IMG/VR virus record: IMGVR_UViG_3300034061_000037
Coordinates: 1 to 22,544 of that record
From: a virus
Reading direction: 5' to 3' (one strand)
DNA length: 22,544 bases
Under the pieces are notes generated by a model. The model ran no database searches and was not told the DNA's origin. It was given only the letters and a program-made list of their open reading frames with translations. Below, piece after piece: positions 3,634 to 14,646 of this stretch. Numbering within the stretch: position 1 is the stretch's first letter; every line of letters starts with the position of its first letter. A program made the position numbers and the translations under genes.

Positions 3634-3848
3634 TGAATAGCATTAAAAAAATGCTCATACAAATGACTTCACAAATCCGAACGAGTAGTGTTACACTCGA
3701 GCCGGTAGAGAAACCCCACAAGATAAAAGACGACAATCAATCTATTCACAACGGGGTGATAAATGAAGAATTTAACTCTAATTTGCGAAGCCAAATTAAG
3801 CCTGACACCAAACGAAAACGAGGGCGTCCAGCCAAGCGGGTTAATTGA
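3633..3848 (+). CDS. Small basic protein of unknown function, AT-hook-like C-terminus
   Basis: A 71-residue ORF starting in the portal stop codon (TAATG overlap) and running 86 bases into the protease gene in a different frame. I do not recognise the family. The N-terminal part is polar, and the C-terminus is strongly basic (KRKRGRPAKRV), containing the RGRP core of AT-hook minor-groove binders. The coupled start and full-length open frame favour a real gene. However, the basic tail lies wholly within the overlap with the protease frame, so its composition is constrained by, or could be a by-product of, that other reading frame. If real, a small DNA-binding protein between portal and protease could be packaged or act in prohead assembly; that is inference only. 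Confidence 0.45.
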   Translation: MNSIKKMLIQMTSQIRTSSVTLEPVEKPHKIKDDNQSIHNGVINEEFNSNLRSQIKPDTKRKRGRPAKRVN

Positions 3849-4587
3849 GGCAGTATGCACGACATGGGGCGCACGTGAGGGTGCGGATGGTCGCAAGTTC
3901 AATTACCAGCCAGAGGGTTTTGCGGATTGGGCGAAGGAGTTTGCAAAGGGCGATAAGCCTTTGCCAATGTTCCTAAATCACAATGACTTGGGTATGCCGA
4001 TGGGTGAGTGGAATTCTTTTGAGTTCGATGACACGGGCATGACTGCAAAGGGTCGTTTGTATACGAATACTGTTGGGGGCAATGACCTCTATCAAATCCT
4101 CAAAGAATCTCCAAAAATGTTCGGTGGTGTTTCAGTTGGCGCTTATGCTGACGAGGCTCGCTGGGTCGATGAGGACGGTAATCCTTTTGAAAATGGTCCA
4201 GATGGGACTATGTATTCAAACCCTGATTTTGATTACGAAAAAGCGTATTTTCAAATTATTAAGGGCGGTATGCGTGAAGTGTCGGTCGTGATGTACCCGA
4301 ATAACCCGCATGCGGAAATTAACAAACTCGAAATGTTCAGCCCAGAGGGTGTATTGAACATTCGTTCGGTCGAAAAGGCTCTGCGTGAGGCGGGTCTGAC
4401 TCGGAAGGATGCGACCACCGCATCTTTGGTATTCAAGAGCGCTTTGGAACAGCGTGAGGCAGTTCGTAAGCCACTTGAATCTCTACCAAATCAGAGTGAG
4501 TCTGATGCGGTGGCAAATGAAGCCGAAAAACTGCTTGCCGCTTTCGAAGCGCGTGAGTTGTTAAAGGCACTCGAAAAACGTATCTAA
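3763..4587 (+). CDS. Prohead maturation protease (HK97/U35-type serine protease)
   Basis: Cleaves scaffold segments from the capsid protein during prohead maturation. The family pattern is visible: an N-terminal strand leading to VCTTWGAREGADGRKF, a catalytic-type His73 in MFLNHNDLGMPMGEW, then GMTAKGRLY, and a candidate nucleophile Ser124 in GGVSVGAYAD followed by MREVSVVMYPNNPHA. Residues from about 190 to 274 form a separate, charged, probably helical C-terminal extension that may help scaffold assembly. ATG 3763 has GGGGTGA upstream. The next in-frame methionine is inside the catalytic domain, so this start is needed even though it overlaps the previous small ORF by 86 bases. It sits between portal and capsid genes as expected. 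Confidence 0.92.
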   Translation: MKNLTLICEAKLSLTPNENEGVQPSGLIEAVCTTWGAREGADGRKFNYQPEGFADWAKEFAKGDKPLPMFLNHNDLGMPMGEWNSFEFDDTGMTAKGRLYTNTVGGNDLYQILKESPKMFGGVSVGAYADEARWVDEDGNPFENGPDGTMYSNPDFDYEKAYFQIIKGGMREVSVVMYPNNPHAEINKLEMFSPEGVLNIRSVEKALREAGLTRKDATTASLVFKSALEQREAVRKPLESLPNQSESDAVANEAEKLLAAFEARELLKALEKRI

Positions 4588-4602: not shown

Positions 4603-5958
4603 ATGTCTATGGATAAAGTAATTGAAAAAGTCGATGCGATTGCCGCATCAAACGAGGCAAAGATTGACGCTGTTAAGACCGAAGTTTCTGCTTCTGTTGC
4701 TACTGCTGTCGAGAGTGCTAAAAATGAGATGAGCGAGAAGTTTGCCGCTTTGGAAGCCAAGGTTGCATCTATTCAAGCGCCTGAGTACATTCGCGCACCC
4801 CACAAGACCGTTCGCGGTGATGTGAATCGTCGCGTTAAAGAGCAACTCGCTAGTTTCACAAAGAGCAATGCTCGTGTGCATACTGAGTTGAAGGTTTGGG
4901 AATCTGACGATCAGTATTCTGCATACTTGACAGAAGCATCAACCCTGACAGGTTCTGGTGCTGGCATTGGTGGTCGTACAGCGTACGACCCCGTGTTCCA
5001 CAAACTGCGTTTGATCAACCCAATGCGTGGTGTGTCTCGTAATGTGGCTACTGATGGCTCAACCTATCAGTTCCGCGCAAAGACGGGCAACGCTGGCGCT
5101 CAATGGGGCTATGCAATTCAGAACAACGGTTCTGCTACAACTGAGGCGACTAGCATTTGGCAGTTGAACATGCAAGACATTAACGTTCAGTTCCCAATCC
5201 GTACAGCGGCTTTGGACGACATCGATGGCTTGGAGTCAAATGTTGTTGATGACATGTTGCAAGAATTCAGTCAGCAAGAAGGCTTGTCGATGATTTTGAA
5301 CAACGACCAGTCTGGTACAACTACTACTGCTTACGGTGGTACGGATGGCTTGCGTGGTCTTAATTCTTATCCCGGTGCTAACAGTTCTTATAGTGGCGGT
5401 ACTATCAGTACTGCGGCTTTCGGTACTAGCGGTACAGCGGCTACAAATGGCTTGCATAGCATCGCTACGTATGACCAGTTGACCACTAACGGTTTTGGTG
5501 CGACAAACAATGTGTCTTATGCTGATTTGATTCAGTTCATTCACAATTTGCCACAACAATACTGGTCTACTGGTAACCGCTTCGTTATCAATCCTTTGAT
5601 GCTCGCTGGCATCCGTGGTTTGGTGGACGATAACGGTACGCCTGTGTTCGAGCGTATGTCTCCGTTGGTCTATGACGGTATCGTTGGTAAGTTGCTGGGC
5701 TTCGATGTGGTGGTTAACACCTATTTGAACAGCCCCGTTTCTGTTGGCGGTTCTGCTGGTACTACAAGCCTGTACCCAATGTACTTTGGCGACTGGCAAC
5801 GTGGTCATACAATCGTAGATCGCTTGAGCATGGTTCTGCGTAGATACGAACAGACACAGCCAGGTTTCATCACATTCTTTGGCGAAAAACGCCTTGCCAC
5901 ATCGGTGGTCGATCCATTTAGCATTATTCGCTATCGTTCGACAGCAACTGGTGCTTAA
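4603..5958 (+). CDS. Major capsid protein 1 (HK97 fold, with N-terminal delta domain)
   Basis: Principal shell protein. Residues 1 to about 100 are helical, rich in Ala, Glu and Lys, with a coiled-coil look (EKVDAIAASNEAKIDAVK and similar). This matches the cleavable delta/scaffold domain of HK97 gp5. The mature fold begins around residue 105-115 (YLTEASTLTGSG). Other landmarks are FPIRTAALDDIDG (197-209), FSQQEG (222-227), NNDQSG (233-238), GLRGLNSY (249-256), and a C-terminal YEQTQPGFITFFGEKRLA. The exact protease cleavage point cannot be read from sequence. AAAGGA precedes ATG 4603. It lies 15 bases after the protease and is followed by a strong intrinsic terminator. A paralogue without the delta domain follows at 6011. 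Confidence 0.95.
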   Translation: MSMDKVIEKVDAIAASNEAKIDAVKTEVSASVATAVESAKNEMSEKFAALEAKVASIQAPEYIRAPHKTVRGDVNRRVKEQLASFTKSNARVHTELKVWESDDQYSAYLTEASTLTGSGAGIGGRTAYDPVFHKLRLINPMRGVSRNVATDGSTYQFRAKTGNAGAQWGYAIQNNGSATTEATSIWQLNMQDINVQFPIRTAALDDIDGLESNVVDDMLQEFSQQEGLSMILNNDQSGTTTTAYGGTDGLRGLNSYPGANSSYSGGTISTAAFGTSGTAATNGLHSIATYDQLTTNGFGATNNVSYADLIQFIHNLPQQYWSTGNRFVINPLMLAGIRGLVDDNGTPVFERMSPLVYDGIVGKLLGFDVVVNTYLNSPVSVGGSAGTTSLYPMYFGDWQRGHTIVDRLSMVLRRYEQTQPGFITFFGEKRLATSVVDPFSIIRYRSTATGA

Positions 5959-5965
5959 TTAAGAT

Positions 5966-5996
5966 GGGGGGCTTCGGCTCCCCTCTTTTAATTTTT
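5966..5996 (+). terminator. Intrinsic terminator after capsid gene 1
   Basis: A seven-pair stem GGGGGGC (5966-5972) / GCTCCCC (5977-5983), with one G-U pair, closes a TTCG loop with a C-G closing pair, the exceptionally stable tetraloop form. It is followed by TCTTTTAATTTTT. This is a textbook rho-independent terminator placed 7 bases after the capsid stop and 15 bases before the ATG of the second capsid gene. Because I see no clear promoter in the gap, partial read-through or 3'-end protection of the capsid transcript is likely. Confidence 0.85.
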
Positions 5997-6010
5997 AAGG
6001 ATTTATCAAA

Positions 6011-7030
6011 ATGAGTGCAAACCAAAAAATTTTAGACGGCATTAAAAAAGCCATGAACGAAGGCGGCAAAGTGAAGATTGACTTGCGCGAAGCCTCGACT
6101 ATTACGGGTTCGGGTCTGGACATTGGCGGTCGCACTTATTTTGATGACGCTTTTTCTGCTTTGCGTTATGCAAATCCGTTTCGTATGGGTTCACGCAATA
6201 TCAAAGCGCCTAATAGTTCTGGGGTGCAATTTGTAGCAAAGACTGGTAATGCGACTGGTGCGAATCCGTGGAATCCTAATGCTACGCCTAATACTGGCTC
6301 GCCTGATACAGCGACTTCGTTTTGGGTGATGCCTACACGGATTATCAATGCTCAGTTGCCGATTCGTATTGCCGCGATGGATGATATTAACGGCTTGCAA
6401 GATGCGCTGATGATGGATTTGGCTTTGGAGTTTTCTCAGCAAGAGGGTGCTTCGATGGCCGCTAATAACGATCAGTCTGGTTCTACGACTACTACGACTG
6501 GTGCGACTTATGGTCTGCGCGGTCTTAATTCGTACACTAGCGGCTCGAGTGCGGCTTATGGTTCTAGTGGTACTGCTATCACGAACGGCATTCATACGCT
6601 GGCAACGGTGTCTCTGGGTGGCGTTGCTGTTACTTATAACAAGGTGGTGGATATCGCTAATGCGTTGCCAGCGCAGTATTGGGCTTTGCCTACAACGGCA
6701 TGGCACATGACACCGACAATGATTCAGACCTTGCGTCAGTTAAAAGACTCACAGGGTTTGCCTTTGTTCCTAGAGTTGGGCGAGCCGGGCGAAGGTGGTG
6801 CGGTTGGTTCGATCTTTGGATGGCCAGTCATTCCTAATTCGTTCCTGAGTTCTACATTCCCGATTTACTTGGCGAACTGGGACAGATTCCTGACGATTGC
6901 GGATGTCGAGGAGATGGATGTTCAGGTGTATGAGCAAACAGCGCCTGGCTTTGTGACGCTGTACGCTGAGAAACGTCTGGCTTCTACTGTCCGTGACCCA
7001 TTTGCGGGTGTTCGCGCAAGTGCCGCCTAA
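6011..7030 (+). CDS. Major capsid protein 2 (HK97-fold paralogue lacking the delta domain)
   Basis: Second HK97-fold capsid protein, clearly homologous to the gene just upstream. REASTITGSGLDIGGRTYFD aligns with the start of the mature fold of capsid protein 1. Across residues 141-175 I count 26 of 35 identities with residues 222-256 of the first protein. The C-terminus repeats the YEQTAPGFVTLYAEKRLA motif and DPF. Only about 25 residues precede the region of homology versus about 109 in protein 1, so the scaffold/delta domain is absent. It could be a minor shell or vertex protein, as T4 gp24 is to gp23, or an alternative coat protein. It has AAGGA upstream and sits beyond a terminator, which should lower its expression. 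DNA-level divergence suggests an old duplication or acquisition. Confidence 0.92.
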   Translation: MSANQKILDGIKKAMNEGGKVKIDLREASTITGSGLDIGGRTYFDDAFSALRYANPFRMGSRNIKAPNSSGVQFVAKTGNATGANPWNPNATPNTGSPDTATSFWVMPTRIINAQLPIRIAAMDDINGLQDALMMDLALEFSQQEGASMAANNDQSGSTTTTTGATYGLRGLNSYTSGSSAAYGSSGTAITNGIHTLATVSLGGVAVTYNKVVDIANALPAQYWALPTTAWHMTPTMIQTLRQLKDSQGLPLFLELGEPGEGGAVGSIFGWPVIPNSFLSSTFPIYLANWDRFLTIADVEEMDVQVYEQTAPGFVTLYAEKRLASTVRDPFAGVRASAA

Positions 7031-7040
7031 GGGGTAAAAC

Positions 7041-7703
7041 ATGGCAGTTGAAAATCAAACTCTTGCACCGTTCTTTTCCAATAATAGGAATCCGTACAAC
7101 TACGCTAAGTTTGAACAGATCAGCCGCGATGTTTCTACTCAATGGCTAACGCTTGAGGAATGCACTCAGCAGTTAAATTTGTACGATGACGAAAGTCAGG
7201 ATGCGTATGTGCGATCGGTAGAGTTGGCGACTCGAATGGCCATTGAGGATTATTTGGGTATGGCAATTTTTGCCACGACTTGGATGGTGTTTTACACAAA
7301 CTTCGGTTTGTATAACACAGCGGTGTATTTGGATTTGCCAGAGGTGTCTCAGGCTAGCACTTTTGGGGCTGGTGTAACAATTAACAATGTTAGTTGCTAC
7401 ACGACTTCAAATACAGTTCCTGAGGTTATTAACTCGGCTAATTACTCTTATGACCCTACGGGCAATCGCGTAATACTTAATTCGTTACCTAATACGCTCA
7501 ACCAAGAGGTGGCAAACCCTATTGTGGTGACGTATACGCAAAATGCGAGCCCGTTGGCTTCGTATCCTGTTATTAAACAGGCGGGGTTGATGTTGTTGAC
7601 GCACATTTATAACAATCGTTCTAATAGTACGGAAATCAAACTTCATGACATCCCGTTTGGGGTTGCTACTCTTTTGCGTTCTTACAAACCGCTGGTGATG
7701 TAA
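7041..7703 (+). CDS. Head-tail connector protein (gp6-like adaptor)
   Basis: Likely the first ring docked under the portal. The family pattern is recognisable: an N-terminal helical segment beginning LTLEECTQQLNLYDDESQDAYV (residues about 36-57), followed by a helix with the SVELATRMAIEDYLGMAIF pattern found in gp6/gp15-type adaptors. A variable middle of beta character follows. The C-terminus, IPFGVATLLRSYKPLVM, matches the usual Pro-Phe-Gly-Val ending. At 220 residues it is somewhat longer than the smallest family members because of the middle insertion (about residues 90-160). AAGGGG lies before ATG 7041. Its stop overlaps the next start (TAATG). Position after the capsid genes supports the role; assignment is by pattern and context. 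Confidence 0.78.
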   Translation: MAVENQTLAPFFSNNRNPYNYAKFEQISRDVSTQWLTLEECTQQLNLYDDESQDAYVRSVELATRMAIEDYLGMAIFATTWMVFYTNFGLYNTAVYLDLPEVSQASTFGAGVTINNVSCYTTSNTVPEVINSANYSYDPTGNRVILNSLPNTLNQEVANPIVVTYTQNASPLASYPVIKQAGLMLLTHIYNNRSNSTEIKLHDIPFGVATLLRSYKPLVM

Positions 7704-8047
7704 TGGGAATCAAACGCTACGAGAATTTGGCTGTAAACAATGTCGTTAATGGCATTGATTCTTTTGGTCAATATACGACTACGCTGACAAAGTGGTTCGA
7801 CACTCGTGGGTTGGTGGCTGATGTTTCAAATTCTGTGCGTATTTCAGAGCGGTATCGTGTTTATCAGGACTTGGTAAACATTACATTAAATTACACGCCT
7901 AATATGAAACAGATGGTTGATAACCAGAATTTGTATTCAATAACATGGCGTGGGTTCGATTGGCGTATTACAGATGTGCGCGAATCAAATGATCGTATGC
8001 GTGTGACGTTTATCTGTTATCGTAATGACCCGAGTACGCCAGTATGA
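7703..8047 (+). CDS. Head closure / head-tail joining protein
   Basis: A 114-residue protein in the slot and size range of head-closure (SPP1 gp16 / HK97 gp9-like, Phage_H_T_join) proteins, which plug the portal channel after packaging and carry the tail interface. The second half has the beta-barrel pattern common to the group: RYRVYQDLVNITLNYTPNM, then LYSITWRGFDWRITDVRESNDRMRVTFIC. Start and stop overlap both neighbours by 1 and 4 bases, so it is probably translationally coupled in the connector operon. Assignment rests on size, position and the barrel-like C-terminus. Confidence 0.7.
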   Translation: MGIKRYENLAVNNVVNGIDSFGQYTTTLTKWFDTRGLVADVSNSVRISERYRVYQDLVNITLNYTPNMKQMVDNQNLYSITWRGFDWRITDVRESNDRMRVTFICYRNDPSTPV

Positions 8048-8466
8048 GTACGCAACAGAATCCATCAGTTTACGCGCAGACTATTCAGTATCAACTGGCG
8101 AGCATTGTTTCGCCTGTGCCTGTTTATGCGTTGTTTAATCGTAACTATGCAACGCAACCTAAGTTTGTGACTTGGCAGTTGAGGAATGTGCATCAGCCAG
8201 TCTATACGGGTCAGACGCAAAGCAATAAGGGTATCGATCGCCCTGTTTTTCAGATGACAGTTTTCGCCCAAAATATGGACGATGCTTTCAATTTATCAAA
8301 CACGATATTACAATCGCTTCATGGGTATTCTGGGACATTTGGCAACCCTGATAACGGGGGCTTTTTTGTCGCGAAAGCGGATGTCGTTTGGCTCTACAAT
8401 ACTTATGACAACGAGTTGGGGTTAAACCAAATTATTTTGGATTGCACCTTAGACGTTCCAACATAA
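8044..8466 (+). CDS. Tail terminator / tail completion protein (DUF3168-like)
   Basis: A 140-residue protein resembling DUF3168-type tail terminators, which cap the tail tube and bind the head-closure ring. The pattern fits: an N-terminal helix (VYAQTIQYQLASIVSPV), an early PVYALFNRNYATQPKFVTWQL strand region, a DRPVFQMTVFAQNMDDAFNLSNTILQSL strand-plus-helix, and a final strand near LGLNQIILDCTLDVP. The ATGA overlap with the preceding gene indicates coupling. In the HK97 order a gp10-like gene normally separates it from head closure; here that gene is displaced downstream to 10161. Confidence 0.7.
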   Translation: MSTQQNPSVYAQTIQYQLASIVSPVPVYALFNRNYATQPKFVTWQLRNVHQPVYTGQTQSNKGIDRPVFQMTVFAQNMDDAFNLSNTILQSLHGYSGTFGNPDNGGFFVAKADVVWLYNTYDNELGLNQIILDCTLDVPT

Positions 8467-13538: not shown

Positions 13539-14185
13539 CAACAATAAATGCTGTAACAGGCGCACAGATAAACCACGCAGAGTTCGTGCGCTTAACTGTT
13601 GGTAAAACTCCTGTCGTATACACCTTTTGTAACGCTTCTGCGCCTATTACTGTCGATGGTATTACATTTGCAAATCTTGGTGCTTTGCTGAATGTTGGCG
13701 ATGTTCAGAGGGATATCAAGGCGACATCGGATGACATGACGATTCAGTTAACTGGTATCGACCCGACTAACATTGGCATTATTTTGGGTAGCGAGATCAA
13801 GGGTTCGCTGGTGGAGGTGTGGCGAGGATTCTTTGATTCAAACAATCAGATTATTACTACTCCTACGCAACAGTTTTTTAAACGCTATCAGGGCATTATC
13901 AATAGCGTTTCTATTAACGAAGATTTCAGTACGGAGAAACGAATTCGTGTTGCTACATGCAATATAGCGTGTTCGTCAATGCGTAGGATTTTGGAAAACC
14001 GATTGTCGGGTATGAAAACTAACAAAAGCAGTTGGCAGTTTACTTATCCTGCGGACACATCAATGAATCGTGTTGCGGAAATCTCTAATCAATATTTTGA
14101 CTTTGGAAAGCCACCGCAAAAGAATACTCAGGCTAGCGAGACAACTGTTACAACATCAAATTCAGCAGTTGAATTCAATAGTTGA
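13535..14185 (+). CDS. Tail-tip hub protein (DUF2163 / lambda L-like)
   Basis: A 216-residue tail-tip protein. The middle contains the pattern of DUF2163-type hub proteins: VGDVQRDIKATSDDMTIQLTGIDPTNIGIIL (from about residue 53), then SLVEVWRGFFDSNNQIITTP and FKRYQGIINSVSINEDF, then a CNIACSSMRRILENRLSG segment, the usual ending of the domain. It contains four cysteines (Cys32, Cys144, Cys148 and no obvious fourth metal ligand; the C-x-x-x-C pair is CNIAC), so an iron-sulphur cluster as in lambda L is possible but unproven. Sits between Dit-like protein and the acetyltransferase, overlapping the previous gene by 4 bases. Confidence 0.68.
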   Translation: MTTINAVTGAQINHAEFVRLTVGKTPVVYTFCNASAPITVDGITFANLGALLNVGDVQRDIKATSDDMTIQLTGIDPTNIGIILGSEIKGSLVEVWRGFFDSNNQIITTPTQQFFKRYQGIINSVSINEDFSTEKRIRVATCNIACSSMRRILENRLSGMKTNKSSWQFTYPADTSMNRVAEISNQYFDFGKPPQKNTQASETTVTTSNSAVEFNS

Positions 14186-14199
14186 AACAAATTTCTAAA

Positions 14200-14646
14200 A
14201 TGATAAAACTTGCAACAAGATACGACATACCAAGATTGCTGGAAATTGTGGAGGCTTATGCGTATGAGAATCCGATTCAGAAACTTGGTGAACAATCAAA
14301 TCACTTTCCTAAATATGTCGAGGAACTCTTGTTCAGCATCATTCAGGGACGTGGTTTCATTTATGTAGATTCGCATTTGCGTGGTGCTATCGTGGCGTAT
14401 AAGACTTCTAATATCTGGTCGCCTAAGGTTAAAGAGTTGAACGAGTTGTTATGGTGGGTCGAGCCTGAGTATAGGAATGGGACGGTTGGCGGTAGGCTTT
14501 GGAAGGCGTTTGACGATCGGGCAAATGCTATGCTTAAGGCGGGTGAAGTGGATTTTGTTTGCACATCGATTTCGGCAAATGGTCCGTTAATTGATTTCAC
14601 TACCAGAGGTTACAAGCCTTTGGGCGCAACTTTTGTTAAGGAATAA
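14200..14646 (+). CDS. GNAT-family N-acetyltransferase in the tail-tip cluster
   Basis: An acetyl-CoA-dependent transferase of the GNAT superfamily. It opens MIKLATRYDIPRLLEIVEAYA, the classic first strand and helix, and later has ELLWWVEPEYRNGTVGGRLW. This segment contains the beta4-beta5 region and the acetyl-CoA pyrophosphate loop R-x-x-G-x-x-x-x-L-like element (RNGTVGGRL). It then ends FVCTSISANGPLIDFTTRGYKPLGATFVKE, with the Phe-x-x-x-Gly-Tyr ending of many GNATs. I chose ATG 14200 because the fold starts there; an in-frame TTG at 14182, overlapping the previous stop, is the alternative. It lies where a tail peptidase often sits in other siphophages. The substrate is unknown. The next gene starts 2 bases after the stop. 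Confidence 0.83.
   Translation: MIKLATRYDIPRLLEIVEAYAYENPIQKLGEQSNHFPKYVEELLFSIIQGRGFIYVDSHLRGAIVAYKTSNIWSPKVKELNELLWWVEPEYRNGTVGGRLWKAFDDRANAMLKAGEVDFVCTSISANGPLIDFTTRGYKPLGATFVKE

Follow-up and report, generated by a model that had tools for sequence, protein, structure and literature searches.

Tandem HK97-fold capsid paralogs in a large group of tailed phages, the second a candidate minor shell subunit

Two paralogous HK97-fold capsid genes stand in tandem throughout a large group of tailed phages, mostly from freshwater, and a terminator-like hairpin is conserved between them. Judged from these sequences, the second gene very probably encodes a minor shell subunit of some kind, be it at the vertices, mixed with the major coat or at another special site. 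The reading we favor, at slightly under an even chance, is that gene 1 makes the major coat and gene 2 builds separate capsomers, with the vertices as their most probable site, on the model of T4 gp24.

The capsid gene pair and its distribution

The stretch of DNA that we analyzed (the window) is a 22,544-base viral contig. Judging by its open reading frames and their Pfam and PHROG matches, it covers the part of a tailed phage genome that encodes head and tail, with terminase subunits, portal, S78 protease, two capsid genes, head-tail adaptor, tape measure and tail proteins. The features of the head region are the following.

3763..4587, + strand: prohead (S78-type) protease gene, adjoining gene 1 (Pfam PF04586, 28.7 bits, cut-off 21; PHROG head maturation protease)
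4603..5958, + strand: gene 1, HK97-fold capsid protein, putatively the major one, 451 aa, with an N-terminal extension of ~108 residues that is a probable delta/scaffold domain (Pfam PF05065, 9.6e-29; highest C-ending codon use in the window)
4603..4926, + strand: part of gene 1 without a gene 2 counterpart, the probable scaffold extension, with predicted helices at residues 3-56 and 70-87 (BLASTP alignment begins at residue 109; AlphaFold2 helix of low confidence)
5966..5992, + strand: terminator-like hairpin GGGGGGCTTCGGCTCCCC with a UUCG loop, followed by a T-rich tail
5997..6001, + strand: AAGGA, Shine-Dalgarno-like site of gene 2, 9 nt ahead of the ATG (AAGGA or AGGA in most spacers listed)
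6011..7030, + strand: gene 2, HK97-fold capsid paralog, putatively minor, 339 aa, without the N-terminal extension (Pfam PF05065, 2.4e-20)
6596..6880, + strand: gene 2 A-domain, residues ~196-290, where divergence and exchange are greatest (limits approximate, inferred from the fold match)
7041..7703, + strand: head-tail adaptor gene, downstream of gene 2 (PHROG 442, head-tail adaptor, 7.2e-13)

Between the tail genes there was also a weak match to GNAT acetyltransferases (14182-14646, TTG start; PF00583, E 0.0047, below the cut-off).

An earlier reading of the sequence alone had placed two HK97-fold capsid genes at 4603-7030. Both open frames are there, and both scored well above the gathering cut-off of the Phage_capsid family PF05065 (101.1 bits for gene 1 and 73.5 bits for gene 2; cut-off 24.2). 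The pairwise alignment which that reading had proposed gave 45% identity and 59% positives over 340 aa of the shared fold; with an E value of 2e-71 (BLASTP), the likeness is not due to chance. The motifs YEQT.PGF and EKRLA occur in both proteins as it had said, and the identities in its 35-residue motif number 27 rather than 26.

Structure prediction, which it had likewise proposed, worked for one of the two proteins. The AlphaFold2 model of gene 2 has the HK97 fold (pLDDT 75) and matched the Rhodobacter GTA capsid with a Z score of 21.4 (252 residues at 4.7 A) and HK97 itself with Z scores of 16-17 in the fold comparison. For gene 1 the model was of low confidence (pLDDT 56) and not usable, and its HK97 fold was assigned through the 45% identity to gene 2.

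The sequence-only reading had further assigned a delta-type N-terminal domain to the first gene only. The extension is indeed absent from gene 2, which aligns from about residue 109 of gene 1, the first ~108 residues being unmatched except perhaps for one short helix; only ~24 residues precede the conserved N-arm in gene 2, compared with ~108 in gene 1. The delta type is plausible, because the extension is predicted, at low confidence, to be mostly helical with a long helix at residues 3-56 (pLDDT about 55-60), and because an S78 prohead protease gene lies next to gene 1.

To survey relatives for co-occurrence of the two genes, as had been suggested, we collected 489 loci by IMG/VR scans starting from the window genes and from divergent relatives, plus one scan of GTDB genomes. 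These loci can overlap, since one contig may recur under several ids; 267 pairs were complete and distinct at the DNA level. Gene 1 and gene 2 were found in tandem and in the same order in 461 of the 489 loci, and in 456 of these each gene is one open frame. The five records with a split gene concern gene 1 in L305/L488 and L490 and gene 2 in L308 and L329, so that gene 2 is interrupted in 2/461, about as often as gene 1. Among the loci without the full pair, 26 are cut by the contig end, one (L220) has no more than the beginning of gene 1, at its contig end, and one (L281) is a probable chimera. Relatives without gene 2 or with a broken copy had been named as the observation that would count against the pair; we found gene 2 wherever its position was covered, bar that one probable chimera, and no credible relative without gene 2 turned up among the 489 loci (IMG/VR from several divergent starting points, GTDB once). 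We rejected L281 as a relative lacking gene 2: the last 69 codons of a capsid gene lie at its contig end (1-207) and bacterial genes follow, which points to a chimeric contig in a metagenome-assembled genome. That contig is assigned to Polymorphobacter. The GTDB matches as a whole are scattered over unrelated bins (Nitrosotalea, Alpha-, Beta- and Gammaproteobacteria), which suggests misbinned phage contigs.

Across the family, gene 1 encodes 435-477 aa and gene 2 encodes 333-360 aa, and the spacer between them is 48 to about 80 nt long, apart from two loci where an ORF has been inserted. An assembly artefact or a local duplication was rejected as the source of the pair, as it occurs in hundreds of contigs and in one complete phage genome. 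The latter belongs to Methylophilaceae phage P19250A (KX815270.1; 38,749 bases, cultured host), the sole phage record with either protein. Its genes P19250A_0005 and _0006 stand in the same order, are 60% (gene 1) and 54% (gene 2) identical to those of the window and are separated by a spacer with a similar hairpin; the annotation of gene 0006 reads 'hypothetical protein'. As a cultured family member, P19250A makes a two-protein head directly testable. Separately, one 75,987-base record of about twice the usual genome length (IMGVR_UViG_3300022748_000017) has two capsid-pair loci ~40 kb apart (L202/L284 and L332/L442), with gene 1 copies 76% identical to each other; it combines two related phage genomes, fused either during assembly or naturally.

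The spacer hairpin and codon use

A GC-rich hairpin followed by a T-run was present in 198 of 208 distinct spacers, compared with 1.7% of dinucleotide-shuffled spacers, and most or all of the ten spacers that failed the strict definition show a hairpin by eye. The hairpins have 104 distinct 5' arms and tetraloops that are mostly UUCG or GNRA, which indicates that base pairing is maintained although the sequence varies. With the same scan we found no such hairpin ahead of gene 1 and none after gene 2, and few within genes. From the end of the hairpin to the start of gene 2 there are 20-31 nt. This leaves hardly any room for a gene 2 promoter, and gene 2 would then depend on read-through from upstream or on a promoter inside gene 1. 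From these features we infer that the hairpin is a partial terminator, lowering gene 2 and the later genes relative to gene 1. Terminators behind major capsid genes have a precedent in T7, where one follows the coat gene, and the spacer terminator may serve only to lower all downstream genes; this counts against giving it a meaning specific to a vertex protein.

In two loci an extra ORF of about 180 aa separates the hairpin from gene 2 and ends in a stop codon that overlaps the start of gene 2 (L294, 5348-5920; L315, 5348-5921). Its N-terminus (YTYIHF...PFYIGKGRGDRYL) recalls GIY-YIG homing endonucleases, and Pfam gave no match.

Codon use also separates the two genes. We used as index the share of C-ending codons for Phe, Tyr, Asn and Ile. 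In the window, gene 1 has the highest value (0.54) and gene 2 (0.31) lies inside the range of the other genes. Over the 267 pairs the index was 0.545 for gene 1 and 0.39 for gene 2, compared with 0.396 for the protease and 0.393 for the adaptor, and gene 1 exceeded gene 2 in 254 of the pairs. This contrast fits one highly expressed coat protein together with one ordinary minor protein.

Low-copy use would also fit a minor shell protein at a special site other than the vertices, for example beside the portal, or a subunit that sets head size and acts in assembly only; gene 2 lies between the coat and head-tail adaptor genes, behind the terminator. We know of no phage protein of HK97 fold in either role, and the usual neighbors of the portal vertex are ordinary coat hexamers, so we hold this reading to be rather unlikely.

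Duplication, divergence and exchange

In a tree of 68 pairs, the gene 1 copies and the gene 2 copies formed two reciprocal clades with support of 100 and a long branch between them. Reciprocal clades imply one duplication before the family radiated, and the split between the genes is thus, on this tree, a single ancient duplication. Recent duplication or gene conversion is excluded by the tree. The identity of paralogs within a phage (0.432) is only 0.5 points above that between phages (0.427), although none of 2000 permutations reached as high a value. Median dN/dS was 0.13 for gene 1 and 0.15 for gene 2, and purifying selection of this kind means that both genes are functional. It is therefore highly improbable that the gene 2 product stays outside the virion, as a leftover or as a regulator such as a decoy of the coat protein: besides its dN/dS of about 0.15, the gene is intact in all but two of the 461 records and conserved family-wide.

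The A-domain of an HK97-fold shell protein packs round the center of its capsomer, and the other parts touch neighboring capsomers. With approximate domain limits, paralog identity within a phage was 63% in the N-arm, 54% in the spine helix region, 43% in the P-domain hairpin and 31% in the A-domain. The A-domain is also the most variable part inside each family; its divergence between the paralogs is thus not specific to a vertex role, a point against the vertex reading.

Near relatives pointed to exchange of gene 2. When gene 1 is 88-97% identical between two phages, gene 2 is less than 72% identical in 10% of such pairs (63 pairs, 31 loci). In these 63 pairs, the A-domain of gene 2 is 47% identical, compared with 89% for the N-terminal helix, 80% for the N-arm and 78% for the P-hairpin. 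At the DNA level, L099 against L026 and L008 gave flanks of mostly 75-90% identity and a gene 2 interior of 55-70%. By these comparisons, gene 2 is exchanged largely as a cassette. If the two proteins shared capsomers, their A-domains would have to match and exchange would be costly, whereas in capsomers of its own, exchange of protein 2 would be tolerable. The pattern is thus suggestive of gene 2 capsomers of its own, and recombination breakpoints in the conserved ends could yield the same pattern.

Congruence between genes across the family gave a related picture. Gene 2 correlated with gene 1, portal and protease with Spearman coefficients of 0.31-0.38, compared with 0.61-0.75 for those three among themselves, and it was also less congruent with the adaptor than gene 1, portal, protease and adaptor are among themselves. 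Such low congruence is not obviously expected of a tightly fitting vertex protein and counts against that role. By itself it does not single out gene 2, because two small neck genes after the adaptor (g8 and g9, window 7703-8466) also have low congruence with the head genes (Spearman 0.29-0.49); the case for gene 2 exchange is instead based on the near-relative comparisons above. The two neck genes may mark a further exchange hotspot where head and tail join, although their short length may explain the low values.

The same evidence bears on a mixed shell, in which proteins 1 and 2 would sit in the same capsomers at a variable or fixed ratio, like the Family 2B encapsulin of Streptomyces lydicus. 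The paralogs are ~45% identical over the whole fold, mixed HK97-fold shells have a precedent (PMC12407261), and the slight excess of paralog identity within phages would agree with such a shell. However, the A-domains, which would pack together inside a capsomer, are just 31% identical; gene 2 is exchanged, its A-domain foremost, while gene 1 stays nearly constant; and the expression signals of the two genes are unequal. We therefore consider a mixed shell unlikely.

Cassette-like exchange among near relatives, together with the faster divergence of gene 2 (mean pairwise identity across relatives 61%, compared with 69% for gene 1), would rather suit an alternative coat that takes the place of gene 1 in certain conditions, or a subunit with a variable surface that diversifies by exchange. 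A coat protein acting by itself would require its own scaffold, and gene 2 has no scaffold extension; its weak codon bias, fixed place behind the terminator and purifying selection also speak against this reading, which we regard as improbable. Among the three options that the sequence-only reading had offered, the evidence thus leans to the vertex-type subunit resembling T4 gp24, and a shell of two equal partners or a bet-hedging coat is less likely. A sub-stoichiometric subunit with its own capsomers is favored because of the terminator, the codon bias and the exchange centered on the A-domain.

A possible head architecture and known two-paralog shells

On the vertex reading, the gene 1 product would be the major coat of a siphophage-type head for a genome of ~38 kb, scaffolded by its own N-terminal extension, which the neighboring S78 protease would cut off. 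An old duplication of gene 1 would have given rise to gene 2, which lost the scaffold extension and took the role of a minor shell subunit. Transcription would run at full rate across gene 1 and be partly stopped at the conserved intrinsic terminator, so that gene 2 and everything downstream would be made at a lower level. Protein 2 would then enter the virion by co-assembling onto the shell scaffolded by protein 1, through its conserved N-arm, spine and P-domain; such dependence on protein 1 for scaffolding would be consistent with the missing N-terminal extension. Protein 2 would form capsomers of its own, most probably pentamers at eleven vertices. In a T=7 head, 55 copies of protein 2 would be expected against ~360 of protein 1, with head size and T number assumed from genome length. 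The HK97 fold of both proteins, the parallel with T4, the tandem co-occurrence, the single duplication, purifying selection, the conserved hairpin, the codon contrast and the A-domain-centered exchange were counted in favor of this reading.

In nearly all HK97-fold capsids, hexamers and pentamers are made of the same protein. The Rhodobacter capsulatus GTA capsid (Rcc01687, 6tb9/6tsu) and HK97 gp5, the closest solved folds to the gene 2 model among the matches listed, are each the one capsid protein for both capsomer types, unlike the pair described here; a delta-type scaffold domain is present in HK97 gp5 and apparently in gene 1. Profile searches of PDB sequences gave GTA-type capsids only. 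Bacillus phage B450T, a siphovirus, is annotated by its authors with two distinct major capsid proteins in neighboring ORFs 6 and 7 (PMC12786184), a likeness in annotation.

In the S. lydicus Family 2B encapsulin, two HK97-fold shell paralogs (Sl-Enc1 and Sl-Enc2) also co-assemble (PMC12407261), and the fold comparison paired the gene 2 model with each of their chains (9bje, Z 15.8; 9bix, Z 15.4). Unlike the pair here, the encapsulins come with no phage genome or portal, form hetero-pentamers and carry an extra variable cyclic-nucleotide-binding (CBD) domain. No such insertion domain was found in the gene 1 or gene 2 proteins, where Pfam matched Phage_capsid only.

According to a 2025 paper, no virus other than T4 has two HK97-fold proteins with distinct structural roles (PMC12407261). 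The T4 major coat gp23 and vertex protein gp24 are likewise paralogs with the HK97 fold, whose presence in one phage is ascribed to gene duplication, and T4 also has a prohead protease. The minor paralog gp24 has a much shorter N-terminal part, like gene 2: the propeptides measure 10 residues in gp24 and 65 in gp23, and some mutations that let gp23 replace gp24 fall in the A domain (PMC9958956). T4 differs in its separate scaffold, 171 kb genome, prolate head and only ~20% identical paralogs, whereas the present family has 45% identical paralogs, a scaffold apparently fused to gene 1 and a genome of ~38 kb. T4 chains were not among the best 50 fold-comparison matches listed, which has no bearing either way on kinship with T4.

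Our literature search for this pair or other dual HK97 coats, in which subscription journals were thinly covered, gave T4, the S. lydicus encapsulin and the B450T annotation only. Heads of two paralogs are thus already known; a ~38 kb phage family in which the paralogs share 45% identity and flank a conserved terminator is new, unreported in the literature searched. Taken whole, the picture of an abundant small-genome siphophage-type family with two HK97-fold head proteins, their ratio set by a terminator and the minor one both forming the vertices and exchanged as a cassette, is one that we put forward tentatively, as possible rather than probable. If true, it would be a second, independent origin of the gp23/gp24 arrangement of T4 and the first with an exchangeable vertex protein. 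Such a conserved and widespread second case would reveal the changes by which a coat protein becomes specialized, the means by which a phage controls the proportion of two shell subunits, and the reason why the minor subunit is exchangeable while the major one stays.
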